Source of the DNA: Firmicutes bacterium HGW-Firmicutes-7
GTDB lineage: Bacteria > Bacillota > Clostridia > Lachnospirales > Vallitaleaceae
Assembly (NCBI GenBank): GCA_002841375.1
Contig: PGZO01000016.1
Location: 1 to 64,000, forward strand
Direction: 5' to 3'
Length of the DNA stretch: 64,000 bases
Each line of letters opens with the position of its first letter. The stretch's first letter is position 1. Of this stretch, positions 2 through 33,489 are shown piece after piece. The notes under the pieces were generated by a model. That model was given only the letters and a program-made list of their open reading frames with translations. It did not search any database and was not told where the DNA came from. The translations under genes and the position numbers were made by a program.

Positions 2-616
2 GCAACTGGTGCTACTGGAGCGACTGGCGCAACTGGTGCTACCGGAGCAACTGGCGCAACTGGTGCTACTGGCGCAACTGGAGCAACTGGTGCTACTGGC
101 GCAACTGGAGCTACTGGTGCTACTGGAGCAACTGGTGCGACTGGTGCTACTGGAGCCACTGGAGCGACTGGTGCAACTGGAGCTACTGGCGCAACTGGTG
201 CTACTGGAGCTACTGGAGCGACTGGCGCAACTGGCGCAACTGGGGCAACTGGAGCTACTGGAGCGACTGGAGCAACTGGCGCAACTGGCGCTACTGGCGC
301 AACTGGAGCTACTGGTGCAACCGGAACAACTGGAGCAACTGGTGCTACTGGCGCAACTGGAGCTACTGGTGCTACTGGAGCTACTGGTGCGACTGGAGCT
401 ACTGGAGCGACCGGAGCAACTGGCGCAACTGGCGCAACTGGGGCTACTGGAGCAACTGGTGCTACTGGAGCTACTGGTGCAACTGGAGCGACCGGAGCTA
501 CTGGTGCAACTGGAGCGACCGGAGCAACTGGCGCAACTGGTGCTACTGGCGCAACTGGTGCTACTGGAGCTACTGGTGCTACTGGTGCAACTGGCGCAAC
601 CGGAGCTACTGGTGGA
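2..616 (+). repeat. 9-bp tandem repeat array encoding Gly-Ala-Thr
   Basis: About 68 copies of a degenerate 9-base unit (GCN ACT GGN) are in perfect register. The Ala and Gly third positions vary, while the Thr codon is almost always ACT. Arrays like this can change length by slippage or recombination without breaking the frame. Confidence 0.9.
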
Positions 617-619
617 TAA
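2..619 (+). CDS. Collagen-like Gly-Ala-Thr repeat protein, 3' end (partial)
   Basis: The reading frame that starts at base 2 encodes about 68 uninterrupted Gly-X-Thr triplets, almost all Gly-Ala-Thr, and stops at TAA 617-619. One triplet near base 316 is Gly-Thr-Thr. The start lies outside the window. Such triplets form a collagen-like triple helix in bacterial surface and exosporium proteins (BclA-type), where threonines are common O-glycosylation sites. Unusually, the protein ends inside the repeat (Gly-Ala-Thr-Gly-Gly-stop) with no globular C-terminal domain, whereas BclA-type proteins end in a trimerising domain. A glycosyltransferase gene follows about 105 bp downstream. Another frame is also open across the repeat but gives Leu-rich low-complexity sequence and is not believed. 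The collagen frame is certain; the surface or spore role is inferred. Confidence 0.88.
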
Positions 620-6294: not shown

Positions 6295-7182
6295 ATGTTA
6301 AAAGAATTAAATCATATCATTGACTATATTGAAGATCATTTAACCAATGATCTGTCTCTTGAAATAATTTCTGAATATGCTGGGGTTTCCGACTATCACT
6401 TTAGAAAGGTATTCTTTTATCTTTCAGGGTTAACGCTTAGCGAATATATCAAAAACCGTAAGTTGTCGGAAGCAAGTATGGATTTATTAAATGGAGAAAA
6501 AGTAACAGATGTTGCTTTTAAATATGGTTATCAGTCACTGGACGGCTTTACTCGAGCATTTAAAAAGTGGAGTGGTTTTTTACCCTCGGATGTAATCAAA
6601 AAAGGTATCAGTAAATCGTTTCCCAAACTTTCATTCATAATAACCGTCAAGGGAGGAACTAGTATGGAATTTAGAATTGAACACAAACCAGCGTTTAATA
6701 TAGTCGGTGTAAGCAAACGTGTCCCTATGCAATTTGAAGGTATTAATAACGAGATTGTAGCGCTTGCAAAAAGCATAACGGACGAACAAAAGAAAGAAAT
6801 GCATTCTCTTCAAAATATAGAGCCCTGTGAAATTGTCAATGCATCTTATGAGGCAGACGCTAATTTCTTAAAAGAAGAAGGAGCTTTAACTCACATAATA
6901 GGTATTTTAACAACTGAAAATCAAGTAAGTAATCTATTGGAAAAAGTGCCCGTCGCAGCTTATACGTGGGCAATATTTCCAAATGAAGGACCGTTTCCTT
7001 CAACGTTACAAGAAACAATGGCTAAAACATATTCAGAATGGCTTCCTTCTTCGAATTACGAGGTAATTAATGCCCCTTCTTTTTCTTTTACTAAAATGGA
7101 TAAACATAAAAAAAATTACGCTTATAGTGAAGTTTGGATTCCGGTTCAAAAGAATGAAAACTTTAAAAATGAGCGCAATTGA
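6295..7182 (+). CDS. AraC-family regulator with GyrI-like effector domain
   Basis: 295 residues. Residues 1-105 form the double helix-turn-helix of AraC/XylS proteins (LEIISEYAGVSDYHFRKVF, then VTDVAFKYGYQSLDGFTRAFKKW). Residues about 122-290 form a GyrI-like (SOUL/BacR) ligand-binding domain (FRIEHKPAFNIVGVSKRVP). This order is that of Rob/MarA-type regulators that sense small hydrophobic molecules. The AAAGGAG site 4 bases before the ATG fixes the start. No obvious target lies next to it; a strong terminator follows. A second regulator of the same design is at 12473-13381. Confidence 0.88.
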   Translation: MLKELNHIIDYIEDHLTNDLSLEIISEYAGVSDYHFRKVFFYLSGLTLSEYIKNRKLSEASMDLLNGEKVTDVAFKYGYQSLDGFTRAFKKWSGFLPSDVIKKGISKSFPKLSFIITVKGGTSMEFRIEHKPAFNIVGVSKRVPMQFEGINNEIVALAKSITDEQKKEMHSLQNIEPCEIVNASYEADANFLKEEGALTHIIGILTTENQVSNLLEKVPVAAYTWAIFPNEGPFPSTLQETMAKTYSEWLPSSNYEVINAPSFSFTKMDKHKKNYAYSEVWIPVQKNENFKNERN

Positions 7183-7194
7183 ATTTAATAATTT

Positions 7195-7228
7195 AACTAG
7201 CAGTTATTCTCTGCTAGTTATTTTTTTA
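7195..7228 (+). terminator. Rho-independent terminator
   Basis: A perfect 9-bp stem (AACTAGCAG 7195-7203 with CTGCTAGTT 7211-7219, 7-nt loop) is followed by ATTTTTTTAT. It ends the AraC-type gene. Confidence 0.9.
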
Positions 7229-7265
7229 TATTTTTTCGTTTCAATATGACTAGTACATCATAAGG

Positions 7266-8018
7266 CTACACTAAAATCTTCTTTTTCAAATATCCTTCGT
7301 TCAGCAAATGTATGGTCTTAAACTTCCCTCCGTAAAATACTGCCCAATTATTAAACACACATGGAACAGCTTTAGCCTCTTCTAACGTATTTATTTTAAT
7401 CAAGTTCAAAGGAATATTATTAGCCTGGCAAAACTTTTCAACCTGCTCAATACAGTTTGGAATGTAGGGGCATTGTTTTCCGTAATAAATTGTAAGATCT
7501 TTTGTATCAATTTCTTGCTTTCGTGCGTTATTTGCAAAGGTAGGCTGACTACCATCAAAGGATAGTGCCAATAGCTCATATTCGCTACCAATTCTATCTA
7601 CCACTTCAAATCCATATTTCTGCATATATTTCTTATCTGTGAGAAACGGTATTTTTTTCTTGGCACTAATAACGCAAACTCCTGATTTCCCTTGACTCTT
7701 AGCATCTTCAATGCAGTATTCTAGCAGCTTTTGACCATGACCTTTACTCTTGAAACTACCCGAAACCCAAAAGCAATAGATATAGATATAATTCTCACCA
7801 TTAATAGGAACCCACGCAGTTTCCAGTGGAGCGTATTCGATAAAAACCTTTCCTTTATCGTCAAGTTTTCTAAAGATATGCCCTTCTGGAAATCTTTCAG
7901 CCAGCCAAGATCGCTTCTCATCAACACCACACTGATGTTTCTTATCGGAAATGGCACAGCACAAATGCTCTTTAGCAATGTTATCCATCTCCAAATTAAT
8001 ATAGTTATCACACATCAT
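7266..8018 (-). CDS. YoaP-type GNAT acetyltransferase
   Basis: About 250 residues. The first ~150 residues are a GNAT domain with the acetyl-CoA loop near SFKSKGHGQKLLE, followed by a YoaP-like C-terminal domain holding YYGKQCPYIPNCIEQV, a thioredoxin-like CxxxxxC segment. Members transfer acetyl groups to unknown substrates. In-frame start codons are GTG at 8024 and ATG at 8018 and 8015. The AGGAGG ribosome site overlaps the GTG, so one of the ATGs is the real start. Flanked by unrelated genes and transcribed alone. Confidence 0.82.
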   Translation of the reverse strand: MMCDNYINLEMDNIAKEHLCCAISDKKHQCGVDEKRSWLAERFPEGHIFRKLDDKGKVFIEYAPLETAWVPINGENYIYIYCFWVSGSFKSKGHGQKLLEYCIEDAKSQGKSGVCVISAKKKIPFLTDKKYMQKYGFEVVDRIGSEYELLALSFDGSQPTFANNARKQEIDTKDLTIYYGKQCPYIPNCIEQVEKFCQANNIPLNLIKINTLEEAKAVPCVFNNWAVFYGGKFKTIHLLNEGYLKKKILV

Positions 8019-21007: not shown

Positions 21008-22153
21008 TTATATGTTTTTTTCTAATGAAGTAATGTGTTCCATTGATATTATATAATAGTCTACTAGTATCTCTTGAGGTATTGATTTAACTAATACGAG
21101 ATTTTCTCCGACTCCCATGATGGTTAGGTTCATTAATTTAGAAAAATCCCCCATACCACACGTTTGAATGGTTACCAATACACCCGCCTCTTTAAATGAA
21201 TTTAGTCTATCCTTTAATTTTGTATCATAAAGCAATGGCTCTCTTAACCAATAAGGTACATAACTTCCAAGTACTATTCGCTCTTCTATATTCTTTTGCG
21301 TTTCTATGCTAAATTTCAATCCAACCATTTGGTTGGCAGGTACAATGTATTCATCAATTTCAATTAATCTTCCTTCAACTTTTTTAATCAATAACTTATT
21401 TACTTTTTGATCAACAGTAGTAGAAAAGTCAATCTTATTAATATTCAAGTCTAATAATCCCTTAATCATTAATTGCCATTCTTTATGGCAACCACATTCG
21501 CAATGTCCTGGCGGGCCCGTATCACCTTTTGGTCCAGTATCACCCTTTGGACCTGGTCTTCCTGTGTCACCCTTAGGCCCTTGCTTTCCTCGTGGCCCTT
21601 CTTCTCCTTCTAAACCACAATAACCTCTTGGTCCTGATTCTCCACATGGACCTTGCGGCCCTCTATGACCCGTATCTCCCCTCGGTCCCATTGGTCCAGT
21701 ATCGCCTTTTGGTCCTGCGGGTCCTGTTGGTCCTGGTTCTCCTTGTCTACCTTTTACACCCGGTGGTCCTGTTAGTCCCGGCTCTCCTGGTCTACCTTTT
21801 ACACCCAGTGGTCCTGCTGGCCCCGGCTCTCCTTGTCTGCCTTTTACTCCTGCTGGCCCGGGCTCTCCTGGTTCACCTTTTATTCCTGCTGATCTAATTT
21901 CCCCCGCATAGCACCTTGACTCTATTGGTCCCACTTCTCCAATAATACCAAATGTTCCACAAGCTACTTTATCCCCTTTTATACATGCTCGTTCTAGTCT
22001 ATTATATTTTTTAGAGATTTCTTTGTAGGCAATTCTATTTTGATATTGGGAATTGGATTGGCTTATGGTCCTTAATCCTTTTTCTAGGAGTTGGCTTCCC
22101 AAAGAAACATAAAACTTATCTTTATGGGAATAACTTGTTTTTTTATCATTCAT
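21008..22153 (-). CDS. Collagen-like protein with Cys-rich flanks
   Basis: 381 residues. Residues 90 to about 218 are some 43 unbroken Gly-X-Y triplets rich in Pro, Lys and Glu, including three tandem 15-residue units (residues 102-146, each beginning GVKGR). This is a stable, animal-like collagen composition, unlike the Gly-Ala-Thr array at 2-619. Cysteines flank and dot the helix (Cys57, 65, 81, 170, 179, and the CECGC cluster at 218-222), which suggests cross-linked trimers. The N-terminal 56 residues and the C-terminal ~155 residues are not recognised; there is no signal peptide. That would suit a spore coat or exosporium protein made in the mother cell (inferred). It lies at the end of a glycosyltransferase cluster on the same strand. 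Confidence 0.87.
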   Translation of the reverse strand: MNDKKTSYSHKDKFYVSLGSQLLEKGLRTISQSNSQYQNRIAYKEISKKYNRLERACIKGDKVACGTFGIIGEVGPIESRCYAGEIRSAGIKGEPGEPGPAGVKGRQGEPGPAGPLGVKGRPGEPGLTGPPGVKGRQGEPGPTGPAGPKGDTGPMGPRGDTGHRGPQGPCGESGPRGYCGLEGEEGPRGKQGPKGDTGRPGPKGDTGPKGDTGPPGHCECGCHKEWQLMIKGLLDLNINKIDFSTTVDQKVNKLLIKKVEGRLIEIDEYIVPANQMVGLKFSIETQKNIEERIVLGSYVPYWLREPLLYDTKLKDRLNSFKEAGVLVTIQTCGMGDFSKLMNLTIMGVGENLVLVKSIPQEILVDYYIISMEHITSLEKNI

Positions 22154-22262
22154 CCTTTCTTCTCACCTCCTTTTATGTACTGGAGATAATTTTGCGTTTA
22201 AGCTATTTTATTCATGTGAGGAAGCTTCTCTTACTTTAAAGATCAGATGGTCGTAATTATAA

Positions 22263-23474
22263 CTATTTATTTTCTTGTTTTATTTTTATAATATATGAAT
22301 TGATCATATCATTTTCAATTTTTATAACGCTATTAAAACTATTTATAAATTGCAAGAGATTAATATTCGGTACTGCAACATTCAAACCATAAATGTTTCT
22401 TTCATCTAGATCTTTACATCCAACTATATTGTAGTATGAGTTAGGTGCCCAGATGAAATAACGTTCACTTTTCCTCCCATGTAATATTTCTTCAAATTTT
22501 ATTCTCCAAGTAGATACATCACTATACCAATCTGCTACAAAAAGAAACCCGTCCAACTGTTTATACGTTGTATTTTCATCCTTAGAAAAACCAGAAAATC
22601 CTATTGGTTCATAATGCTTTTCACGATAAAAATCATTACTTTTTATCAACTGATCACGAGATGATTCGATGGAATCTAATTGCCATTTTGTTAGAAATTT
22701 TTTTTTATTTGAAGATATAACTTGTTTGACATCCCATTTTGAAGCCCCAAATGAGGCGCTACCAATATGATAAACAAAGGAGTTACCCATAACAACAAGT
22801 CTATAACCTGCAATTCTTATTCTAATGCACCAATCATCATCATCATAATGACCTGGACTAAACCAAAAATCGTTCCCCCCTACTTGATCTATAACATCTC
22901 TTCTCACAACCATACAAGCTCCAATGACTCTATTCGTTTCAAGCGTTTCTCTTTGATGGCTTTTCATAAAAGCTTCTGAAAATTGATGGATTCTATCTAA
23001 ATCGGATTCATAGTAACCTATATGCTGTAATCCAGATGCATTAGATAAATATGGAACTGCTACTCCTATATCTTGTTTTTCTTTTAGAATATTTAATAGT
23101 GGATTTAACCAGCCTTGGGTAAAAATTAAATCATTATTTAAAACAATTAACACATTTCCACTTGCCTTTGAAATGCCATAATTTATGCCTACTGGATAAC
23201 CCATATTTTCATCTAATCTATAGTAGCCTATATAAAATCCTTTATATTTTCTCTCCTTTAATACACTACTAACCTCTTCATCCATAAGTTCTATAGAACC
23301 GTTATCCACCAGAATAATTTCTACTCCTTCAGAAATTATTAATTGATCAAGAGATTTAATTAAAGTTTTCATAGCTTGTAAAGTTAACTTCCATTGGTTA
23401 TAGCATAGAAGGATAAAGCTATAATTAATTTTCTTTTCTATATTCATTAATAAATATTTGTCTATACTCCTCAT
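22263..23474 (-). CDS. Family 2 glycosyltransferase
   Basis: 403 residues, GT2 with FILLCYNQWKLTLQAM near the start, LVDNGS, the metal site VLNNDLIF and the acceptor-side motif DDDWCIRIRIAGYRL. The last ~130 residues are of unknown type (WYSDVSTWRIKFEEIL). The reading frame overlaps the end of the upstream glycosyltransferase by 50 bp if ATG 23474 is used, or 23 bp with ATG 23447; neither has a strong ribosome site, so translation may be coupled. It sits between the collagen-like gene and other sugar transferases. Acceptor and donor unknown. Confidence 0.87.
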   Translation of the reverse strand: MRSIDKYLLMNIEKKINYSFILLCYNQWKLTLQAMKTLIKSLDQLIISEGVEIILVDNGSIELMDEEVSSVLKERKYKGFYIGYYRLDENMGYPVGINYGISKASGNVLIVLNNDLIFTQGWLNPLLNILKEKQDIGVAVPYLSNASGLQHIGYYESDLDRIHQFSEAFMKSHQRETLETNRVIGACMVVRRDVIDQVGGNDFWFSPGHYDDDDWCIRIRIAGYRLVVMGNSFVYHIGSASFGASKWDVKQVISSNKKKFLTKWQLDSIESSRDQLIKSNDFYREKHYEPIGFSGFSKDENTTYKQLDGFLFVADWYSDVSTWRIKFEEILHGRKSERYFIWAPNSYYNIVGCKDLDERNIYGLNVAVPNINLLQFINSFNSVIKIENDMINSYIIKIKQENK

Positions 23475-24102
23475 ATCTTGTTAAGTCTACTCGCCCACAA
23501 TAATGAATACACCAAGGATGCATTTGATATGGGACGGCTACTTTATATCCCTTTTTCTGAAATTCTAAACACTGTGAAATATCATAAAAATGCCATCCAT
23601 CAAATAAATCATCTCTAAATTTCATATCAACCTGTGTTGCAAATAATAATCCATCTACTGCTTCTACTTGCGTTATTTTTTCTCTAGTAGATTGAAAATC
23701 CAAAAGCGCTAACGTACCAGTATGACTATCTACTACTTTCCCTTCTTTTTGATCAGATTCCCACCATATTCCACTTTGAGGTATTCTCTTTGTTCCAATA
23801 ACCCCAATTAAACCTACATTTTGGTGTTCGTGAAACAACTCTAAAATGTCTACAACAAAGTTTTGGTGTAGGATCCATACATCTTGATGCAAATATACTT
23901 TATACTTTGCATCCGACATTTGCATACCTTGATTATAACCTCCTGTTAAAGATTTGGCATCTTCTACTGCGATCGTTTCCACTTCATAACCATGAGGTAT
24001 GGTTAATTTCCTTATATATCGTAACGAATGTTCATATAATTCTTCATTGTTAACACATGTAATAAAACATATTTTATTTTCATTTACAGTTATTGACTTC
24101 AC
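23425..24102 (-). CDS. StrF-like glycosyltransferase domain protein
   Basis: 225 residues resembling the StrF/Glyco_tranf_2_5 group of GT-A enzymes: KICFITCVNNEELYEHSL at the start, GGYNQGMQMSDAKYKVYLHQDVWI as the metal-site region (HQDV), and a C-terminal HYCGRVDLTRYEEY. The only in-frame start is GTG 24102, whose ribosome site AGAAGG is too close, so the exact start is doubtful. Same transcript as the GNAT-GT gene upstream and GT2 gene downstream. Small for a glycosyltransferase but complete. Confidence 0.78.
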   Translation of the reverse strand: MKSITVNENKICFITCVNNEELYEHSLRYIRKLTIPHGYEVETIAVEDAKSLTGGYNQGMQMSDAKYKVYLHQDVWILHQNFVVDILELFHEHQNVGLIGVIGTKRIPQSGIWWESDQKEGKVVDSHTGTLALLDFQSTREKITQVEAVDGLLFATQVDMKFRDDLFDGWHFYDISQCLEFQKKGYKVAVPYQMHPWCIHYCGRVDLTRYEEYRQIFINEYRKEN

Positions 24103-24156
24103 CTTCTAATCTATACTATGAATTAATGAGATATTCTGTTCTTTTTGGCTTATATA

Positions 24157-25704
24157 TTAAGACTTATAATTAGACAACTCCTCAATTTTAGATTGTATGT
24201 CTTCAGAAATTTTATCTAATGAAAAGTTCTCTCTTAAATCCCTTTCAGCAATAGAAGATATTTTTCCCCTTAAGTCTTCGTCTTCTATTAACCTTACAAT
24301 TCCATCATACCAATCTTCTACTGTGTTATTAACCATTAAACCATTATATTCGTTTCTAATGTGATTATTAAATGGACTACCATTAGAATATATTCCCGCT
24401 GCATTTATAGCACCGTATTCTAAGTATTTATTAAAATATTTACAGGAATTAAAAGATGAATTAGGTAGCGGTGCTAATCCAATGTCCCAATTTCTACTGT
24501 GCATAAACTTCTTATACTGCTCATATTGTTCAATGTATGGGTAGCAGCCTATAGGAAGCTGGTGCATATAGTAAGGTTCAAAGCCTAATATTTCAATGTT
24601 AATTTTACCTGTATATTCCTTAATCAGCCTTTCAAATGGATTATATAGCAAATATTCGAAAAAACTTCTATGATCTATACCACTTGCATAGCCAATTGTT
24701 ATAACTTCATTAGGCTCTTTCAAAGTTTCTTCATCTTTAAGCAATAAAGCTGGTGCTTTTGTTAATATTACTTTTTCAAAGAAATTCATATACTTCGTTG
24801 CAATGATTCCATTGTTTGTCCATAAAGAATTACACACTTTCATAATATCTTGGATGTTATGAAGAACGCTCGTACTATTAAAATACTTATGATTATAAGT
24901 ATACGAAGCATCTAAACTTAGTAAATCATCATCCAAATAATAAATTATATACTTGCCCTTACTGACCGCTTTTTTTACCAGTTCTAATGCTTCTTTTTCT
25001 GCACCCCTAATGCATATTACGACGTCACAAGCAACAATATCCTCTTCAGTTACCTCCTTCGTATCTTTATATTCAAACTTCAATACACCTTTTCGTTCTA
25101 GCGTTTTTAACGGCTCAATTACACCTACAGTGGCTGATGGAATCATTTTAAAACAAAAGGCAAGAACCCCTGTCTTAACTGGATTTTTCGGGTTTGCTAC
25201 TAATTCCATGTGAATGAGTAATTTATCATTCTCATGAATTTCTTTAACTTGTTGAAAACCAATTTTTTTGTAGGCATGAATTGCGCTCTTATTGTTCTTC
25301 AGAACATTTAAGTAGATTTTGTTAAGCTTAAAATATTTAAATCCAAAGCTACAAATCATTTTAGTCGCTTGTGGTCCATAGCCTTTGCCCCTTGCAATGT
25401 CTAAACCTATAAACATTCTACCAAACTCAGCTTGTAATAATTTTCGATCGATATTATATAAAGAAATAACGCCTATTGGTTGGTGAAACAATTTGCTTTC
25501 CTCAATAATAAAAATTATTTCATTGTCACTTTTCAAGTAGCTTTCATACCATTTTCTTTGTTCCTCCTGTGTAATTATTTTGTCATTAATAAACCATTTT
25601 CGTATATGATCACTATTTCTCCACAGTCGGACAGTTTCAATATCGTAAGCGGTAATAGGTCTTAACGTCAATGCTTGATCTTTTAATCGACCACTGAATT
25701 TCAT
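24157..25704 (-). CDS. GNAT acetyltransferase-glycosyltransferase fusion
   Basis: 515 residues. Residues 1-170 are a RimJ/RimL-type GNAT domain (LTLRPITAYDIETVRLWRNS; acetyl-CoA loop RGKGYGPQATKMI; LNVLKNNKSAIHAYKKIGF). Residues about 178-515 resemble GT-B glycosyltransferases (GVIEPLKTLERKG, YYLDDDLLSLD, and the C-terminal CKYFNKYLEYGAINAAGIYS, NGLMVNNTVEDWYDGI). A plausible reading is an enzyme that N-acetylates an amino sugar, as PseH or WecD do, and also transfers sugar. AAAGGAG precedes the ATG. It is divergent from the CgeB-like gene (85 bp between starts) and upstream of two more glycosyltransferases. Confidence 0.83.
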   Translation of the reverse strand: MKFSGRLKDQALTLRPITAYDIETVRLWRNSDHIRKWFINDKIITQEEQRKWYESYLKSDNEIIFIIEESKLFHQPIGVISLYNIDRKLLQAEFGRMFIGLDIARGKGYGPQATKMICSFGFKYFKLNKIYLNVLKNNKSAIHAYKKIGFQQVKEIHENDKLLIHMELVANPKNPVKTGVLAFCFKMIPSATVGVIEPLKTLERKGVLKFEYKDTKEVTEEDIVACDVVICIRGAEKEALELVKKAVSKGKYIIYYLDDDLLSLDASYTYNHKYFNSTSVLHNIQDIMKVCNSLWTNNGIIATKYMNFFEKVILTKAPALLLKDEETLKEPNEVITIGYASGIDHRSFFEYLLYNPFERLIKEYTGKINIEILGFEPYYMHQLPIGCYPYIEQYEQYKKFMHSRNWDIGLAPLPNSSFNSCKYFNKYLEYGAINAAGIYSNGSPFNNHIRNEYNGLMVNNTVEDWYDGIVRLIEDEDLRGKISSIAERDLRENFSLDKISEDIQSKIEELSNYKS

Positions 25705-25789
25705 TGTTTTTCTCCTTTACATTCTATAAAGCCCAAGTCATAATTCATCTATTAAAATGAATAAACTAATCTAAAAGGAATTCAAAAAT

Positions 25790-26770
25790 ATGCGTGTTGT
25801 TTTTGTTGAAAATGATCATCGATTTATCTTCGGTTTACCTCTTGGATTTAGAGATGCTGGTCATTCTATTTTAGTCACTGGTGCATTAACAGATTCAAAG
25901 CTTGATGATGTGTTTTCTAGCTTTAAACCACAGTTAGTTATTGTGGTTGGTTGGAGCAAATTACACACACCTTCTAATTTAGAAGCCATTCATGAGTTTG
26001 CTAAAAGCTATGGTGTTCCCGTTATATATTGGGCAACTGAAGACCCTACCTTTACAACTTTTTTCTCTATTCCGCTTGTTAAGCTTTTATGTCCAAGTTG
26101 GGTCTTTACAGTATCCGCTTCGTCTATACCACTTTATGCTGCCTTTGGTTATGTTGCCTCTTTCTTACCTTTTGCTTACCAGCCAACAATATTTCATCCT
26201 AATTCAAAAGGTGATTTCACTCCAACATTGGTCGGATTAGTTGCAAATGCTTATCCAAATGTTTTAGAATATGATGCTACCCATTTCCGAAAAAACTCTA
26301 TTAAGCTACTACTAAGCCCCTTGCTTGATCAAAACATTCAAGTCGATATATGGGGTAATGACTGGGATAAAATGTCATCAATTTTAGGTAAGACTTTGCC
26401 TTCAAGTTGGTTACATGGAGGCATTCATTATTTAAAGACCAATGCGATATATAATTCCTGTGATATTATACTTGGCCTACAAAATTATTGTGAAGGCGTA
26501 ATCGCTATGCGTTTCTATGAAATATTAGGTTCCGGTGGGTTTTTAATGACCTCTAATAATAAAGAACTCGAATATTTCTTTTGTCCTGAAAAAGATTTTA
26601 TTACGGTAAACTCCTATGAAGAGATGCTTGAGAAGTATCTTTTTTATAAAAAAAATGAATCTGCAAGAGAAAAAGTCCGTGCAAATGGTTTTAAAAGCAT
26701 TTCAATACATACCTATAAATCTAGAGCACTTGAAATCATTAATACCTTACAAAAAGAAAATATCATTTAA
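25790..26770 (+). CDS. CgeB-like glycosyltransferase
   Basis: 326 residues of the CgeB/Glyco_trans_1_2 GT-B type: start MRVVFVENDHRFIFGLPLGF, middle VIYWATEDPTF, and C-terminal nucleotide-sugar part CEGVIAMRFYEILGSGGFL with KELEYFFCPEKDFI. B. subtilis CgeB acts in glycosylation of the outermost spore layer, so this is the best hint that the island works on spores. AAAGGAA precedes the ATG. It is the only plus-strand gene in the cluster, divergent from the GNAT-GT gene and convergent with the next (17-bp gap). Confidence 0.85.
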   Translation: MRVVFVENDHRFIFGLPLGFRDAGHSILVTGALTDSKLDDVFSSFKPQLVIVVGWSKLHTPSNLEAIHEFAKSYGVPVIYWATEDPTFTTFFSIPLVKLLCPSWVFTVSASSIPLYAAFGYVASFLPFAYQPTIFHPNSKGDFTPTLVGLVANAYPNVLEYDATHFRKNSIKLLLSPLLDQNIQVDIWGNDWDKMSSILGKTLPSSWLHGGIHYLKTNAIYNSCDIILGLQNYCEGVIAMRFYEILGSGGFLMTSNNKELEYFFCPEKDFITVNSYEEMLEKYLFYKKNESAREKVRANGFKSISIHTYKSRALEIINTLQKENII

Positions 26771-26787
26771 ATCACCTATCTCTTTGT

Positions 26788-28734
26788 TTATTTTTCAAAT
26801 ATTTGTAGCAACTGAATAAACATAGGCAATACTGCCTTTGTTTCATATACGGTTATAACTTCTTCCTTAGCATTAGATAATAGCTTCTCACGTAATGTAC
26901 TGTCACAAATTAAGCTCTCTAAAGCAAAAAACCACTGTTCTTCTTCATTTTCTATAATCAATCCATTCTCCTCATTAATTATTAAATTATTATATAACTC
27001 CGTATTCGTATAGATACCCACTGCTCCAGCAGCAGTAATATCTAAGTATTTATAAGGACATTTACTATTTAAGTATCTTGTATTACCCAACGGGCTTACC
27101 ATGATATCACAATGTGCTTCCGATAAATCCTTCGTGTATTTAGCATAATCAACTTCATATGATTTCATGGTTATTCTATTACTATATTTTTCAAAAATTT
27201 CCGGTAACACCATGCCGTGAAAATACAAATTAACTTCTTCGTATTTATCCATTATTCTCTTTAATGCATTAAATGCTGGATCGCAAAAGGGCAATATAGA
27301 ATTGCTACCCACATAACCAATTCGAATATTGTTTGAATTATTTTTTATATTCCTCTTTTTAAAAAATTCTAGATTTATATTATATGAAAGCAATATAATT
27401 TGGTTGGTGTATTCACTGACATCTTGCCACAACAAATCGTTATAGAGAAGTACATAATCCATCGTAGAAATAAGCAAAATAAAGTTTTGATAGAAGGAAG
27501 TATTTATACCTCTTTGCGCTTTAAGCTCTGGATATGTTTCAGTTTCACAAATCCAATTTTCATCAAGAATATATACTGTATTAATATCTTTTTTATAACA
27601 AAATTGTGCGGCTTTAACAGCTTGTTCTGATCGACTCCTAACAAAAAAGATAAGGTCATAACCATTGAGCTCTGAAATATTTAAATTTTGCTCATGAAAT
27701 TTTCTCCAAGATACCTTTTTAGATAATTTTTCAAAAAAATTGAGCAAGTATACCTGAACCTGAGTGCTATCATTCATATCACTTACTATACCAATTTTAT
27801 ATGGTTTGTTTTTGCCTTCTTTCGCCGCATTTATGCTTTTTAAAAAGGATTGATTTAGAATTTTATTTGTAATCCTTTTTTTACGAGAATACGCAACACT
27901 ATTCCTCAATCCAAATCTTATGATGTCATCTATTGACTCATTAAATTTTAGGTCACTATGTACATTGCATAATGATACCCTTGCAAATAAAGGTGTTCCT
28001 TTTAAAGCTTTTAACCTACCTGCAGCTATAGTACTAGCCCTTAACACAAATTCCCAATCTACAATTCTACATATTGTCGTATCTGTATAAAAACCCTTTA
28101 ATTTTTCAACTAGCCCTCTCTTAAATAAGCAATAACAAAGGGGAATCAAATTAGAACCTTGAAGCCACCCTGAATAAGCTTCAAATTGCCCTACGTAACC
28201 TAAGTCACATGCATTTTTATTGCTAGTCTCAAATTTCACTTGACCGTATACGCCATCACAATTCTCATCCTTCAGGCTATTGTTTAGATTCATTAACGAA
28301 TCCTTTTGCCAATAAACGCCTGTCCAAGTAAAACAAACTTTTTTACCTCTAGAAATGTAATTGCCTGCATTCCACATTAATCCTGGCCCAGCAAAACCAA
28401 TATTCGTATCAACAATTATAGTATTTTGCTTTTTATCGATATTATTATTTAAGTATTCTAAGTCTTTTAACCTGACACCATCTAGCATAATAATGATCTC
28501 TACTTCAAAATCATTTGGCAAATGTTCTTGATTATATAATGTTTCAAGCGTTAAAATTAATTCCTCTTCACACATTCCTTTATAATGATAAATAATAAAA
28601 GATACATCTACTTTTACATATTTTTTTCTTTCAAACCAAAACAATGATTCATTTGTTTGTTTTTCGTTTTCTCTTGAGTTAGCAAATTCAACAATAAAGT
28701 CATAATCGCTTTGTGACATTTGATATAACGCCAT
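26788..28734 (-). CDS. Two-domain GT2-GT4 glycosyltransferase
   Basis: 648 residues. Residues about 42-300 are a GT2-type domain (VDVSFIIYHYKGMCEEELIL, MLDGVRLKDLEY, NIGFAGPGLMWNAGNYIS) and residues about 318-648 a GT-B domain (YKIGIVSDMNDSTQVQVYLL, RIGYVGSNSILPFCDPAFN, CPYKYLDITAAGAVGIYT). The metal motif of the GT2 half is FTWTGVYW rather than DXD, so that half may be altered. AGGAGGG precedes the ATG. Two activities in one chain suggest addition of consecutive sugars; the target is unknown. Confidence 0.82.
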   Translation of the reverse strand: MALYQMSQSDYDFIVEFANSRENEKQTNESLFWFERKKYVKVDVSFIIYHYKGMCEEELILTLETLYNQEHLPNDFEVEIIIMLDGVRLKDLEYLNNNIDKKQNTIIVDTNIGFAGPGLMWNAGNYISRGKKVCFTWTGVYWQKDSLMNLNNSLKDENCDGVYGQVKFETSNKNACDLGYVGQFEAYSGWLQGSNLIPLCYCLFKRGLVEKLKGFYTDTTICRIVDWEFVLRASTIAAGRLKALKGTPLFARVSLCNVHSDLKFNESIDDIIRFGLRNSVAYSRKKRITNKILNQSFLKSINAAKEGKNKPYKIGIVSDMNDSTQVQVYLLNFFEKLSKKVSWRKFHEQNLNISELNGYDLIFFVRSRSEQAVKAAQFCYKKDINTVYILDENWICETETYPELKAQRGINTSFYQNFILLISTMDYVLLYNDLLWQDVSEYTNQIILLSYNINLEFFKKRNIKNNSNNIRIGYVGSNSILPFCDPAFNALKRIMDKYEEVNLYFHGMVLPEIFEKYSNRITMKSYEVDYAKYTKDLSEAHCDIMVSPLGNTRYLNSKCPYKYLDITAAGAVGIYTNTELYNNLIINEENGLIIENEEEQWFFALESLICDSTLREKLLSNAKEEVITVYETKAVLPMFIQLLQIFEK

Positions 28735-28813
28735 GATACTCCCTCCTAGATTTGTTATGGCTTGTTTATGTCTATTTACTAACTATTATATGGTCAAGCT
28801 ATGTATCAGGTTA

Positions 28814-30295
28814 CTAATCTATTGCCTTCTCAAACCAAAAAGATGCCTCCTCAATTCTTGCCTCATCTAAAAAACTTTGCCCTAAAAAACAGCATTCTTT
28901 CATTTGGGGTATTCCTAGCTCAAAAGTTAAGAAACACTGTTGTCTAGCTTCCTTTAGATTATCCAAAAAATAATACGCCCAATACCTCAATCTATAAGCT
29001 TCTATTTTTTTATCTGTATTCGAACTTCCATAATTGATAAACTCATTTAAGAAATAAATTGCTTCTTCATATACTTCATTTTTATATAGCTCATTTGCAT
29101 AATCAAATATTTCTAACATATTATTAAAACCTCTTTTGGGATTATTATTCTTTAACATATGGCATGTTAATACTTCGTATTGTGCAATTTGACACAAATA
29201 TTCATATAACTTCTCTATGGAATCCTTCCAATTATATTTTTCTACTGTAAGAAATCCATTTTTTACTAAGTTATCCCTTAGCCTATCATTCTTCATTAGT
29301 TCTAGCATATTTTTAGCCATATCTTGAAGATTTCCCTTTTCATAAAGCAATAAGTTATAGCGATCAATTCCATATTCTTTTACCCCCTCATTATCCGCGC
29401 TTATAACCGGGCAACCAGAAGCCATCGCTTCTAATACGGGAAGAGAAAAACTCTCATAGTACGATGCAGATATGTAGAAAGTGGCCCCTTTAAAAAGCTG
29501 TGAAATCTGATTTTGACTTGGATTAATAATAACTTTTGATATAATACACTCAAATGATTTGCTTGGAGGATAAGGAGTAATCCAATATAGCTTCAATTCC
29601 TTATTTAACTCTTTTAGCCCATTAAATACTGCTACTACTTCCTCAATGCCTTTAAAGACAACATCTTCTCTTCCCATTATTAACAAATATTTTTCTTCAC
29701 ACTTGTAATTTTCCTCGGTCCACTTGTTGTTAAATGTGTTCGGATCTATTGCATTTGGAATGATTTTTGCGTCGCGTTTAAAGTATTGCTTAATCAATCT
29801 TGCAGTCAGTTGAGATACTGTCATAATAAACTTTGGCAACTGAAATTGTGTATAAACAAATCCCTTATGATCAACCTTTAGCTTTTCATAATTAAATAAA
29901 TGAATATCTCCTTGTTCAAAATATATGACCGGTGCAATTTCTGTTTCAATACATTCTTGAATATGGGTATAATAGGTTGCAATGATGATGTGGCACTTTG
30001 GAATTAGCAAAGATATTCGAAGTTTTGAAGGCACTTCAATATAATGTGCCTTTAGTTGATACCATGTTGGTCTCTCTCCATAAGAAACAATTGTAACTGC
30101 AATTCCCTTTTCAATTAATTTATTCGCTTGATCAAAAATAATCTTTGTTGCACCACAAATAGACGGATTTGCAACTACATACACTACATGTAACATTACA
30201 ATCTGTCTATTTGTTTGAATCAGCCTTTGTTCGTAGGCATTTTTCAATTTTTCTACTCTCTGTTCATACACTAGTTTACCTATACCGTTAATCAT
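28814..30295 (-). CDS. Family 4 glycosyltransferase with TPR-like tail
   Basis: 493 residues. Residues about 34-385 are a GT4/GT-B domain (VYVVANPSICGATKIIFDQA; IIPNAIDPNTF; the E-x7-E motif in YYESFSLPVLEAMASGCPVIS). The last ~90 residues are helical TPR-like repeats (YEEAIYFLNEFINYG, ARQQCFLTFELGIP, EASFWFEKAID) similar to those of the adjacent GT2-TPR protein. The ATG at 30295 has only a weak ribosome site; Met34 is an alternative. It starts 8 bases after the stop of the GT2-TPR gene, so both are in one transcript. Confidence 0.87.
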   Translation of the reverse strand: MINGIGKLVYEQRVEKLKNAYEQRLIQTNRQIVMLHVVYVVANPSICGATKIIFDQANKLIEKGIAVTIVSYGERPTWYQLKAHYIEVPSKLRISLLIPKCHIIIATYYTHIQECIETEIAPVIYFEQGDIHLFNYEKLKVDHKGFVYTQFQLPKFIMTVSQLTARLIKQYFKRDAKIIPNAIDPNTFNNKWTEENYKCEEKYLLIMGREDVVFKGIEEVVAVFNGLKELNKELKLYWITPYPPSKSFECIISKVIINPSQNQISQLFKGATFYISASYYESFSLPVLEAMASGCPVISADNEGVKEYGIDRYNLLLYEKGNLQDMAKNMLELMKNDRLRDNLVKNGFLTVEKYNWKDSIEKLYEYLCQIAQYEVLTCHMLKNNNPKRGFNNMLEIFDYANELYKNEVYEEAIYFLNEFINYGSSNTDKKIEAYRLRYWAYYFLDNLKEARQQCFLTFELGIPQMKECCFLGQSFLDEARIEEASFWFEKAID

Positions 30296-30303
30296 CTGAT
30301 GAC

Positions 30304-31368
30304 CTACTGTATTTCGTCGAAAAATTTTTGATTAAACAATATGCTCTCATGATTTTTATTATGTTTTAACGCCTCTTCATTATGTTTCTTTGCTTTTTGA
30401 ACATCACCCAATTTATAATAACACATACACAATTGTAAATGAGGCAGCCAAGAGCTACAAGCAGGATTCGTAAAGGCGTCTGGATGATCGTCTTGACCAA
30501 CCCGAAGTGCTAAACTATACCAATAAATGGCTTGCTCAATCTTGCTCTCTTCAAAATAGTTGCTCCCCATTTGACAACATACTTCTGGTCGTGGCTTTCC
30601 GTATTCAAACGTTTTGTAACAGTACGTACGGCTTTGATTGTACAAACCAAACCAAGTATAATACCTCGCAATTTTTAAACATGCAGCAATTTTTTCTTCT
30701 ATCCAAGCGTCTTCACAATCAATAAAATCTAAAAAATAATCTATTGCCCTTTCATAGTCTTCGTGATCATATAGTTCTTTTCCATAATAGTAAATGTCTC
30801 TTGTACTTAATTTAATTCCCTTTTGTAGTCTCTCCTCATAAATTTTAAGATTCCGATCACTTACTGCTTTAATTCTTTTATGGGTAATGCATATATCCGT
30901 ATCAATTGTTTTTCCATAAATATCAAGATATTCATGTACCGCGCCATACCACATAAACCCTTTCTCTCTTCTAACTAATCGATTTCTTCTAAAGCTTAGT
31001 AAAACATTCTCGTTTTCATCAACCTCATAATGATAGATCATTGAATAAGCATCAATATCTCCATTTAACGCCTGTTTTAGATCAGCAAGTTTTTCTAGCT
31101 CCTTTGGATACAAAATATCGTCTGCATCAAGCCATAAAATATAATCCTTTGTTGCTTTAGAAAAAGCAAAGTTTCTTGCACTTGCAAAATTATTATCCCA
31201 AGAAAAATGATATATTTTTGCTTTATAATTTTTTGCTATTTCAATTGTTTTATCTTTAGAACCCGTATCAATAACTATAATTTCATCTAAAACATCCATT
31301 ATGGACGATAAACATCTATCGAGTACTTTCTCCTCATCTCTAACAATCATACATAAACTAATAGTCAT
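30304..31368 (-). CDS. Family 2 glycosyltransferase with C-terminal TPR repeats
   Basis: 354 residues from ATG 31368. GT2 motifs: TISLCMIVRDEEKVLDRCL, VIDTGSKDKT, LWLDADDILYP. The C-terminal half has TPR-like repeats (RDIYYYGKELYDHEDYERAI, NYFEESKIEQAIYWYSLAL, YYKLGDVQKAKKHNEEAL). It is a clear full-length paralogue of the protein at 725-1795. A longer frame starts at 31419, but ATG 31368 aligns with the paralogue and has GGAG 11 bases upstream. It lies between rmlB and the GT4-TPR gene in one operon. Likely modifies a surface or spore protein; acceptor unproven. Confidence 0.88.
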   Translation of the reverse strand: MTISLCMIVRDEEKVLDRCLSSIMDVLDEIIVIDTGSKDKTIEIAKNYKAKIYHFSWDNNFASARNFAFSKATKDYILWLDADDILYPKELEKLADLKQALNGDIDAYSMIYHYEVDENENVLLSFRRNRLVRREKGFMWYGAVHEYLDIYGKTIDTDICITHKRIKAVSDRNLKIYEERLQKGIKLSTRDIYYYGKELYDHEDYERAIDYFLDFIDCEDAWIEEKIAACLKIARYYTWFGLYNQSRTYCYKTFEYGKPRPEVCCQMGSNYFEESKIEQAIYWYSLALRVGQDDHPDAFTNPACSSWLPHLQLCMCYYKLGDVQKAKKHNEEALKHNKNHESILFNQKFFDEIQ

Positions 31369-31426
31369 TAATGTAAAATCTCCAAAATAAATACTTAATA
31401 CTAATGTATGCGAACTCAAAGTTGTA

Positions 31427-32395
31427 TTATATTATTTGTTTGAAAAACCAATCAGCATTTTCTATATACCAAGCCACTGTGCTTTTTAAACCTGTACCAA
31501 AATCAGTATCTGGTTCAAACCCTAACTCCTCTTTTATTTTAGTTCCGTCAATGGCATATCGAAAATCATGTCCTAATCTATCCGTTACATATTGGATTAA
31601 CCCCTCATCTTTTTTCATTATATGAAGAATTTCTTTCACAATGGATAAATTGGTTTTTTCATTATTGCCGCCAATATTGTAGACCTCTCCAACCTTCCCA
31701 TTATGAAGAACAAGATCGATTGCTCTACAATGGTCCTCAACGTGTATCCAATCCCTAATATTTAAACCATTACCATAAATTGGTACTTCCTTATTGCTAT
31801 TTGCCTTTGAAATAATCAATGGTATGAGTTTTTCTGGATATTGATTTGGGCCGTAGTTATTAGAGCATCTAGTTATATTAACTGGTAGTTTGTATGTTTT
31901 ATAATATGCTAAGGTTAATAAGTCTGCTGACGCTTTACTAGCAGAATATGGATTATTAGGACATAAAGGATTACTTTCAGTAAAAAACCCTGTATGTAAA
32001 AGGCTACCATATACTTCATCTGTAGATATTTGTACGTATTTTTTCACGCCATATTTTTTCGCTAAGCCTAATAATGTTTGCACCCCTAATACATTCGTAA
32101 CAACAAAGCGCTCAGAATCTATTATACTTCTATCCACGTGTGTTTCCGCTGCAAAATTGATGACATAATCAATTCCTTTTATAAAGATCTTTTCAACCAT
32201 TTGTGTATCCGCAATATGCCCTTTAACAAAGCTGTAGTTGGAATTTCCCTGTATATCCCTTAAATTGTTCAAATTACCTGCATAGGTTAAAGCATCGTAA
32301 TTAATTATTTTATAACCTGGATATTTTTTAAGAATATAATGAATAAAATTGCTTCCAATAAAACCAGCACCACCAGTTATCAATAAGGATTTCAT
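31427..32395 (-). CDS. rfbB: dTDP-glucose 4,6-dehydratase
   Basis: 322 residues, an extended short-chain dehydrogenase. It converts dTDP-glucose to dTDP-4-keto-6-deoxyglucose with bound NAD+. The Rossmann motif TGGAGFIG is at residues 7-14, catalytic STDEVYG at 124-130 (Thr-Asp-Glu triad), and Tyr150-x3-Lys154 in YSASK. AAAGGAGGTGG precedes the ATG. It is directly downstream of rmlA and upstream of glycosyltransferases. RmlC and RmlD are not in the window, so the final sugar could be rhamnose (with the rest elsewhere) or another 6-deoxy or amino sugar. Confidence 0.96.
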   Translation of the reverse strand: MKSLLITGGAGFIGSNFIHYILKKYPGYKIINYDALTYAGNLNNLRDIQGNSNYSFVKGHIADTQMVEKIFIKGIDYVINFAAETHVDRSIIDSERFVVTNVLGVQTLLGLAKKYGVKKYVQISTDEVYGSLLHTGFFTESNPLCPNNPYSASKASADLLTLAYYKTYKLPVNITRCSNNYGPNQYPEKLIPLIISKANSNKEVPIYGNGLNIRDWIHVEDHCRAIDLVLHNGKVGEVYNIGGNNEKTNLSIVKEILHIMKKDEGLIQYVTDRLGHDFRYAIDGTKIKEELGFEPDTDFGTGLKSTVAWYIENADWFFKQII

Positions 32396-32443
32396 TTCAC
32401 CACCTCCTTTTATATGTAATAAACCTCAAAATATTTGAAAATA

Positions 32444-33316
32444 CTACCCTATATCTCTTGATAGCAAGCTTAATAAGTATTTCCCATAGTCCGTACTTTT
32501 AAGTTTATCTGCAAGTGCAATTAAATCATAGTCATTAATATACCCTTTATCGTAAGCTACTTCTTCAATACAGCCTACATACTTCCCATTATCCTTTTGA
32601 TAGTTATGAATATAGTTTGAAGCCTCTATTAGTCCCCCGCAGCTTCCTGTATCAAACCACTTAACTTCGTTATTTAATAGTTTTACCTTTAACTTTTTCT
32701 GATCCAGATAAATACGATTTATATCTGTAATTTCCAATTCACCTCTTGCTGATGCTTCTATATCTTTTGCAATTTTTACTACCTTATTATTATAAAAGTA
32801 TAAGCCAGGCACAGCATAATTCGACATTGGATACATTGGTTTTTCCTCAATGGAATGTACATTGTTAGCTGAATCGAACGCTACCACGCCAAAATCCGAA
32901 GGATTTGAGACAGGATACGCAAATATTAAAGCATTATTCTCTATACTAATTCCATTTAATATTTTATTTAATTGTTCTCCGCAAAAAACATTATCACCAA
33001 GAATAAGTGACACATCACTATCAGCAATAAAGGATTCCCCAACAATAAATGCATCCGCTAACCCTCTTGGCTGATCTTGAATTTTATAATTCAAGGAAAT
33101 TCCAAGATGTGAACCGTCCCCTAGCAGAATTTTATAATTGCTTATATCTTTTGGTGTTGATATAACTAATATTTCTCTAATGTTGGCCATCATAAGTACA
33201 GACAAGGGATAATAGATCATAGGTTTATCATATATTGGAAGCAATTGTTTTGACACTACTTTTGTTATTGGAAACAACCTTGTCCCAAATCCACCTGCTA
33301 AAATAATCCCTTTCAT
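32444..33316 (-). CDS. rfbA: Glucose-1-phosphate thymidylyltransferase
   Basis: 290 residues, full length for RmlA. It makes dTDP-glucose from dTTP and glucose-1-phosphate. Motifs: GIILAGGFGTRLFPIT at the start with SKQLLPIYDKPMIYYPLS, GDNVFCG near residue 110 (metal site), and EEKP / WFDTGSCGGLIEAS later. GGGGAGGTGACC precedes the ATG. First gene of the sugar-nucleotide/glycosyltransferase transcript that runs leftwards. Confidence 0.96.
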   Translation of the reverse strand: MKGIILAGGFGTRLFPITKVVSKQLLPIYDKPMIYYPLSVLMMANIREILVISTPKDISNYKILLGDGSHLGISLNYKIQDQPRGLADAFIVGESFIADSDVSLILGDNVFCGEQLNKILNGISIENNALIFAYPVSNPSDFGVVAFDSANNVHSIEEKPMYPMSNYAVPGLYFYNNKVVKIAKDIEASARGELEITDINRIYLDQKKLKVKLLNNEVKWFDTGSCGGLIEASNYIHNYQKDNGKYVGCIEEVAYDKGYINDYDLIALADKLKSTDYGKYLLSLLSRDIG

Positions 33317-33489
33317 AGGTCACCTCCCCTACTATATGTTTAGAGAGAATTTAATCCTTGTCCATAAACCAAATAATCTTTAAATTCATTATATGGTATT
33401 TTCTCTCAACTACTATATACTATGTAATAGGAAAAAAATGGTGATTTTTATTCACCCTTAAACATTGTTATCCTTTCCAACTGGAGGAC

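Follow-up and report, generated by a model that had tools for sequence, protein, structure and literature searches.

In Clostridioides difficile, SgtA, an enzyme of 358 amino acids (aa) with a GT-A domain and TPR repeats, is encoded beside bclA3 and is reported to add beta-O-linked N-acetylglucosamine (beta-O-GlcNAc) to threonines of the BclA3 collagen repeat (PMC7157674), and the bclA genes of this species are described as being under sigmaK control (PMC3789822). Here, an island of ten genes located at positions 21008-33316 of a 64,000-nucleotide (nt) stretch of DNA (hereafter the window; contig PGZO01000016.1, positions 1 to 64,000) of Firmicutes bacterium HGW-Firmicutes-7, a member of the Vallitaleaceae, is compared with this and other described systems. 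As judged from its sequence, the island is very probably a richer version of SgtA/BclA spore collagen glycosylation. As in C. difficile, a glycosyltransferase (GT) of the GT2-TPR type, of about 358 aa and with the same N-terminal sequence, is encoded beside a collagen-like gene (PMC7157674). Unlike the C. difficile pair, however, the island comprises ten genes, including rmlAB, a GNAT-GT fusion, four more same-strand GT genes and a CgeB-like gene, and the C-terminal domain of its collagen matched no family.

According to a review, prokaryotic collagens are mostly not glycosylated, and a limited number of bacteria do decorate them (PMC8968730). In the Bacillus cereus group, genes of collagen-like spore proteins are part of a "rhamnose cluster operon" and adjoin a GT gene (PMC10761439, PMC7333573), the 4-amido-4,6-dideoxyhexose of the glycan comes from an operon of its own, the four-gene anthrose operon, which includes an aminotransferase (PMC10761439, PMC7333573, PMC6222408, PMC6947953), and BclA of Bacillus anthracis carries 4-amido-4,6-dideoxyglucose on rhamnose (PMC6222408, PMC6947953). 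The island resembles this cluster in combining a collagen gene with GT genes and in its predicted sugar, which would be analogous to the 4-amido-4,6-dideoxyhexose of BclA, but it lacks rmlC and rmlD and has its GNAT domain fused to a GT; the likeness is one of gene content. Clostridium sporogenes has a bclA/bclB-glycosyltransferase-csxA cluster, the GT of which is thought to modify the adjoining collagen-like proteins (PMC7333573). It shares with the island the neighbourhood of a collagen-like gene and a GT gene, yet it has a single GT gene, and no sugar-nucleotide genes are named in the relevant part of the report (PMC7333573). In Bacillus subtilis, sigmaK-driven sps loci contain dTDP-rhamnose (dTDP, deoxythymidine diphosphate) genes and GTs, and the cge genes shape the spore crust; these loci differ in their legionaminic acid pathway, and no collagen gene is named in the sections describing them (PMC7439481). 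The original prediction, made from the letters of the window alone, that no system of this gene content had been described cannot be upheld, since counterparts exist in C. difficile (sgtA-bclA3), in C. sporogenes (the bcl-GT cluster) and in the B. cereus group (collagen genes with a rhamnose cluster).

The reading favoured here, with a probability of about 0.7, is that the island makes oligosaccharides and attaches them to collagen-like spore-surface proteins in the mother cell, late in sporulation. The genes concerned are the following:

21008..22153, minus strand: collagen-like protein of 381 aa (PF01391, E=3e-21), Gly-X-Y repeat, C-terminal domain at about aa 216-381
22263..23474, minus strand: GT2 glycosyltransferase (PF00535, E=1.9e-18)
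23425..24102, minus strand: Glyco_tranf_2_5 glycosyltransferase (PF13712, 296 bits)
24157..25704, minus strand: GNAT N-acetyltransferase-GT fusion (PF13302), the GNAT part PseH-like but under the PseH cut-off
25790..26770, plus strand: CgeB-like glycosyltransferase (PF12996, DUF3880; PF13524, Glyco_trans_1_2)
26788..28734, minus strand: 648-aa glycosyltransferase, GT4-type in its C-terminal domain (weak Pfam match) and, by eye only, GT2-like in the N-terminal half
28814..30295, minus strand: GT4 glycosyltransferase, C-terminal stretch similar by eye to the TPR region of the SgtA-like gene
30304..31419, minus strand: SgtA-family GT2-TPR enzyme (PF00535, TPR_2, TPR_1)
31427..32395, minus strand: rmlB, dTDP-glucose 4,6-dehydratase (TIGR01181, 459 bits against a cut-off of 365)
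32444..33316, minus strand: rmlA, glucose-1-phosphate thymidylyltransferase (TIGR01207, 399 bits against a cut-off of 361)
2..619, plus strand: (Gly-Ala-Thr)n collagen, 3' part, the 5' part very probably lying at the end of contig C30
725..1795, plus strand: second SgtA-family GT2-TPR enzyme of 356 aa (PF00535 and TPR), 105 nt downstream of the (Gly-Ala-Thr)n, or (GAT)n, collagen

As read from the open reading frames (ORFs), nine of the ten island genes are on the minus strand and are transcribed in the order rmlA, rmlB, GT2-TPR, GT4, 648-aa GT, GNAT-GT fusion, Glyco_tranf_2_5, GT2 and collagen-like gene, while the plus-strand CgeB-like gene sits between those of the 648-aa GT and the GNAT-GT fusion; the genes flanking the island appear, by eye, unrelated. 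The gene content first proposed for the island, namely rmlA, rmlB, five GT genes, a GNAT-GT fusion, a collagen gene and a CgeB-like gene on the opposite strand, was confirmed in all its parts by the ORFs together with curated models and Pfam. The GT part of the GNAT-GT fusion gave only weak GT1-type Pfam matches, so that its identity comes from relatives, and the call of the 648-aa protein, with weak GT4-type matches under the cut-offs, leans on relatives as well. The name "CgeB-like" rests on the Pfam domains DUF3880 and Glyco_trans_1_2, which are linked to CgeB. The orthologue of the GT4 gene in a genome of the same genus (G001) matches the SgtA-like gene weakly (48 bits). Neither signal-peptide-like nor transmembrane-like stretches were detected in the 11 proteins examined (top 19-residue Kyte-Doolittle mean 1.73), as would be expected if the collagen is modified in the mother-cell cytoplasm.

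By their sequences, both GT2-TPR genes of the window belong to the SgtA family of C. difficile. Their products carry PF00535 together with TPR_1/TPR_2 and are 356 aa and about 354 aa long, the latter length being counted from the likelier start of the island gene, an ATG at 31368 rather than the TTG at 31419. The primer used for cloning of the C. difficile gene encodes the start MITISLCMIV (PMC7157674). This is the consensus start of 33 aligned members (the two window proteins and 31 from the loci described below), and the window proteins begin with MTISLCMIV and MISISLCMIV; the C. difficile protein was thus compared via its primer-encoded N-terminus, not its full sequence. The nearest PDB sequences to the SgtA-like enzyme are GmaR (89 bits) and then the peptide S-glycosyltransferase SunS, both of which are protein- or peptide-modifying glycosyltransferases.

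A similarity scan with the island GT2-TPR gene returned 432 relatives, the best 80 of which were taken as loci; by title (judged by eye) all but one of them come from Bacilli or Clostridia. A collagen ORF, defined as at least 12 consecutive Gly-X-Y triplets, occurs somewhere in 56 of the 80 loci and within 1 kb of the SgtA-type gene in 45; in 41 of the 45 the closest such ORF shares the strand of the SgtA-type gene. For the 40 loci that extend at least 8 kb to either side, the collagen ORF lies within 1 kb in 20 and within 5 kb in 28, and is missing from 12. In the window, the gene at 725-1795 adjoins the (GAT)n gene, and the one at 30304-31419, although part of the collagen island, is separated from the collagen gene by 8 kb. 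The island RmlA had matches in 3/80 SgtA-family loci and RmlB in 7/80, the latter mostly weak. This scarcity indicates that SgtA and collagen form a general module to which rmlAB was added in some lineages; the constant linkage of rmlAB, GT-TPR and collagen genes that had been suggested for comparison across genomes therefore holds inside the family and breaks down over the 80 loci. The one exceptional locus, L026, titled Flavobacteriaceae, contains a Firmicutes-type collagen, SgtA, two Glyco_tranf_2_5 genes, rmlA and rmlB, and is probably misbinned; it is the sole locus of the 80 with SgtA, Glyco_tranf_2_5, RmlA and RmlB matches together.

Island proteins and domains were further searched in 116 genomes, including, besides G001, a member of the same family (G009) and five of genus g3 (G003, G013, G017, G020 and G021). 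The C-terminal domain of the island collagen is present in eight of the 116, own genome included, and in seven of these eight the genes for GT, GT2_5 and GT2 and then the collagen gene are adjacent; in the eighth, G035, the domain is present with no match to the other island proteins in the 19.9 kb read. In G001 the gene order is identical and the CgeB-like gene is likewise reversed, an opposite orientation that is kept in four relatives. In genus g3, rmlB, rmlC, an rmlD-like gene, a PseC-like aminotransferase and a UDP-sugar (uridine diphosphate sugar) dehydrogenase are each found in 5/5 islands and rmlA in 4/5 (G003, G013, G020, G021), the G017 stretch beginning at rmlC. SgtA-like and CgeB-like genes lie downstream of the collagen in G003, G013 and G020, CgeB being reversed in each; the stretches of G017 and G021 end 1.4 and 2.7 kb past the collagen, respectively. 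The Glyco_tranf_2_5 query produced strong matches in 9/116 genomes, that is, the seven islands, G009 and G048, and a weaker one in G036 (E=1.7e-4). The G009 match is within a protein of 1229 aa that has a Gly-Pro-Thr collagen and two SgtA-like genes in its vicinity; the 19.9 kb read around the G048 match contained no collagen.

Two of these loci have features of their own. In G009 (L036, contig C5), the two SgtA-like genes flank the 1229-aa protein with its Glyco_tranf_2_5-type domains beside the Gly-Pro-Thr collagen, making it a compact relative of the island. In G048 (L175), two ORFs with near-identical starts (4155-5807 and 6760-7299) flank a Glyco_tranf_2_5 fragment, an arrangement suggestive of a surface-protein locus that was duplicated or rearranged.

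Judging by its SpoIVA gene (728 bits), the genome is probably that of a spore-forming lineage. One sigmaK promoter of C. difficile is described with the boxes AC and CATATAAT (PMC3789822). The pattern AC-N16/17-CATAnnnT was searched within 150 nt upstream of ORFs of the window genome and was found before 4/14 island-side ORFs (which include two non-island ones, the off-frame ORF 1-693 and the gene at 1948-2907) versus 3/132 others (Fisher p 0.0016). The four sites precede rmlA, the 648-aa GT gene, the Glyco_tranf_2_5 gene and the C30 collagen part, and two of the three "other" sites precede an epimerase and an aminotransferase gene on contig C42. The sites in the island itself are:

24113..24139, minus strand: sigmaK-like promoter AC-N17-CATAGTAT, before the Glyco_tranf_2_5 gene
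28785..28811, minus strand: sigmaK-like promoter AC-N17-CATATAAT, before the 648-aa GT gene
33417..33442, minus strand: sigmaK-like promoter AC-N16-CATAGTAT, before rmlA; the rmlA gene of G001 is likewise preceded by a similar site

The same pattern stands 38-52 nt upstream of all five g3 island collagens and of one G009 collagen. In the 80 loci it precedes 22/85 SgtA-type genes and 10/46 collagens versus 24/976 other ORFs, though near-identical loci from metagenome-assembled genomes are not independent and inflate the p-values. None of three permuted controls was raised before collagens; the one with ATAC for CATA was raised before SgtA-type genes (8/85), but seven of those eight sites end within 3 bases of a sigmaK-like site and are mostly the same sites.

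Only rmlA and rmlB of the rml set are in the island. A second set, rmlA-rmlC-rmlB, is located on contig C76, and RmlD-like genes are found elsewhere in the genome, with the best match on C71. The bclA rhamnose cluster contains a complete rmlACBD set beside the collagen gene; such an arrangement is absent from the window island, and rmlA, rmlC, rmlB and an rmlD-like gene are present in the stretches of G003, G013, G020 and G021. The position of the GNAT domain varies among the relatives. In G020 a stand-alone GNAT, a dehydrogenase and a GT come after the aminotransferase; in G003, G013 and G017 the GNAT is fused to the UDP-sugar dehydrogenase; and in the G021 island the aminotransferase is present and the query found no GNAT. 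In G001 the island GT lacks the GNAT, and the aminotransferase, followed by a stand-alone GNAT, is encoded about 100 kb away (C9:261745). In the window genome the island GT carries the GNAT as a fused domain, and an orthologue of the aminotransferase (71% identity) is encoded on C42 (C42:183114). Its neighbours there are an epimerase, a NeuD-type acetyltransferase and a second aminotransferase; no GNAT was matched in this stretch. Such exchange of fusion partners among pathway genes speaks for C42 and the island acting jointly.

Since rmlC and rmlD are outside the island and the GNAT is inside, and since relatives group the rml genes, the aminotransferase and the GNAT, the island sugar probably is or includes a 4-acetamido-4,6-dideoxyhexose. 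Plain rhamnose is less likely, although the C76 genes and the RmlD-like genes would allow it. The GNAT scores 74 bits against PseH (cut-off 93) and the aminotransferase 200-225 bits against PseC (cut-off 423), so that neither is proven to be PseH or PseC. Close aminotransferase orthologues (at least 63% identity) occur in 13/116 genomes, namely those with the seven islands, G009, G022, G034, G052, G063 and G079, and in G009 an rmlA-rmlC-rmlB-aminotransferase run lies 1.6 kb from the collagen gene. It follows from this distribution that the amino-sugar module is not tied to collagen and that the GT trio nearly is. The proposal that the island makes a 6-deoxy-sugar glycan and attaches it to one or both collagen-like proteins remains, in view of the SgtA family, the collagen linkage and the promoters, the best reading, with an acetamido-dideoxyhexose as the probable sugar.

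As to the acceptors, the island collagen has 43 counted Gly-X-Y triplets, far above chance, and, as in BclA-type spore collagens, a long Gly-X-Y region without a hydrophobic or signal-peptide-like N-terminus. Its C-terminal domain found no credible match in Pfam, NCBIfam or PDB; the PDB search with an alignment of the domain retrieved only unrelated proteins at E 0.58-0.99, and the profile of the domain alone had zero matches at E up to 1 among the ORFs of the 80 SgtA-family loci. A single-sequence structure model of the domain was unusable, with a predicted local distance difference test (pLDDT) score of 34.4 and a predicted template modelling (pTM) score of 0.25. A stand-alone copy of the domain in G020 (L136, 9101-9682) has a Cys-rich N-terminus and no collagen repeat, and is possibly a coat protein.

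The collagen search of the genome found the island gene, the window-start gene and one place on contig C30 ending inside (GAT)n. The (GAT)n sequence is present both at the window start and at the C30 end (L139, 13172-14137), and in G001 (contig C9, 150-188 kb) the gene order passes through the C89 genes directly into the C30 genes; both observations make it very probable that the assembly has split one gene between the C30 end and the window start. At its N-terminus, the product of this gene has the known domain NTTRR-F1 (205.9 bits against a cut-off of 70). Thr occupies position Y in nearly all triplets of (GAT)n (about 1.0), in 0.20 of those of the G001 collagen, in 0.22-0.77 in g3 island collagens and in 0.04 in the collagen of G035, which has no GT island. 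The (GAT)n protein is thus the better predicted acceptor, and the island collagen would be, at best, a sparse one. Thr content was also tried as a mark of SgtA-adjacent collagens and rejected: after the omission of 5/65 collagen ORFs with under 15 counted triplets, the median for those farther from an SgtA-family gene was 0.745 (n=16), nearly equal to that of the collagens within 1 kb, which means that the figure is not specific to SgtA adjacency.

A narrower form of the favoured reading, in which only the (GAT)n collagen carries sugars and the one at 21008-22153 is an unglycosylated scaffold, is a less probable alternative. It draws on the difference in Thr at Y (about 1.0 vs 0.16) and on the (GAT)n gene having its own SgtA-like partner; on the other hand, g3 island collagens reach 0.22-0.77, and G001 keeps the whole island with its collagen while lacking the (GAT)n collagen and its GT2-TPR partner at the syntenic place, the only part of G001 searched for them.

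Several observations weigh against glycosylation of spore collagens by the island. YabG, which is sigmaK-controlled in C. difficile, was not found in the genome. No full sigmaK-like site lies in the 150 to 220 bases upstream of the island collagen or the G001 collagen, and the sigma-K promoter search proposed with the original prediction thus succeeded for rmlA, the 648-aa GT and the Glyco_tranf_2_5 gene and failed for the collagen itself. Genome-wide, no enrichment was seen for the stricter ACC form (368 vs 361 for the reversed pattern), so that the case for the promoters is built on their location ahead of island genes and on relatives. Thr at Y in only about 0.16 of the 43 triplets is not the Thr-rich Y position of BclA-type collagens and falls far below the median of 0.70 (n=44) in collagens within 1 kb of an SgtA-family gene. 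Finally, 24 of the 80 SgtA-family loci, 12 of these with long flanks on both sides, have no collagen ORF, and related sugar/GT modules occur without one in the stretches read of G022, G034, G052, G063 and G079, of which the collagen-free G052 stretch (L171) nevertheless contains an SgtA-like ORF of 608 aa. Homologous GT clusters were expected not to occur regularly without a collagen gene; this applies to the GT trio, nearly always found with collagen, and not to the related modules of these five genomes.

The last of these points would also fit a spore-crust or cell-surface polysaccharide of the B. subtilis sps/cge kind as the island product, the collagen being a neighbour and not an acceptor: the rmlA-rmlC-rmlB-aminotransferase-GNAT runs of G034, G052 and G063 (L170, L171 and L176, from another family of the same order) and the looser modules of G022 and G079 are those without collagen, and the rmlAB, GT and CgeB-like genes match the kinds described for B. 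subtilis spore loci (PMC7439481). This explanation is nonetheless unlikely, for the GT trio adjoins the collagen gene in 7/7 islands despite the reshuffling of other genes, and collagen ORFs cluster by SgtA-family genes in loci titled Bacilli and Clostridia. A flagellin or S-layer glycosylation island with a collagen gene present by chance is highly improbable: in the PDB the SgtA-like enzyme is matched best by GmaR, a flagellin-modifying enzyme of Listeria, and the PseH- and PseC-like parts are reminiscent of flagellin sugar pathways, but the islands conserve a collagen gene and a rough pattern for flagellin N-termini picked out none of the ORFs in the 10 stretches scanned (the window and the seven islands were not among the flagellin-model scans).

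If the island does glycosylate spore collagens, the following course of events may be envisaged. SigmaK-type RNA polymerase would transcribe both the island and the separate C42 sugar cluster, as the promoter motifs suggest. RmlA and RmlB, assigned by curated models, would make dTDP-4-keto-6-deoxyglucose, which the C42 PseC-like aminotransferase and the GNAT domain would convert to a 4-acetamido-4,6-dideoxyhexose. By analogy with C. difficile SgtA, the SgtA-family enzymes would add the priming sugar, beta-O-GlcNAc, to threonines of Gly-X-Thr triplets, and the GT/GT2_5/GT2 trio, together with the 648-aa, GT4 and CgeB-like enzymes, may lengthen the chain and cap it. The acceptors would be the (GAT)n collagen, rich in threonine, and, more sparsely, the island collagen, which may be anchored in the spore coat or exosporium via its Cys-bearing flanks and family-specific C-terminal domain. 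In its most specific form, this becomes a sigmaK-timed pathway of the Vallitaleaceae, divided between two loci, that builds an acetamido-dideoxyhexose-capped oligosaccharide on spore collagens in the mother-cell cytoplasm, with the GNAT-GT coupling N-acetylation of the amino sugar to its transfer and so finishing the cap, and with the C-terminal domain as a new spore-surface anchor or trimerisation module; taken as a whole, such a scheme is rather doubtful. A two-locus amino-sugar supply with a partner-changing GNAT, a conserved GT trio and a family-specific C-terminal domain of a collagen were not found in the literature searched.

The occurrence of an SgtA-type gene within 1 kb of a collagen ORF in 45/80 loci suggests that sugar-coated collagen may be a common spore coating. 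Beyond the pathogens that have been studied well, the island itself would provide a complete sugar pathway with which to study spore collagen decoration. Domain shuffling ties genes on separate contigs into one predicted pathway, and the island collagen points to a C-terminal domain undescribed in the libraries searched.

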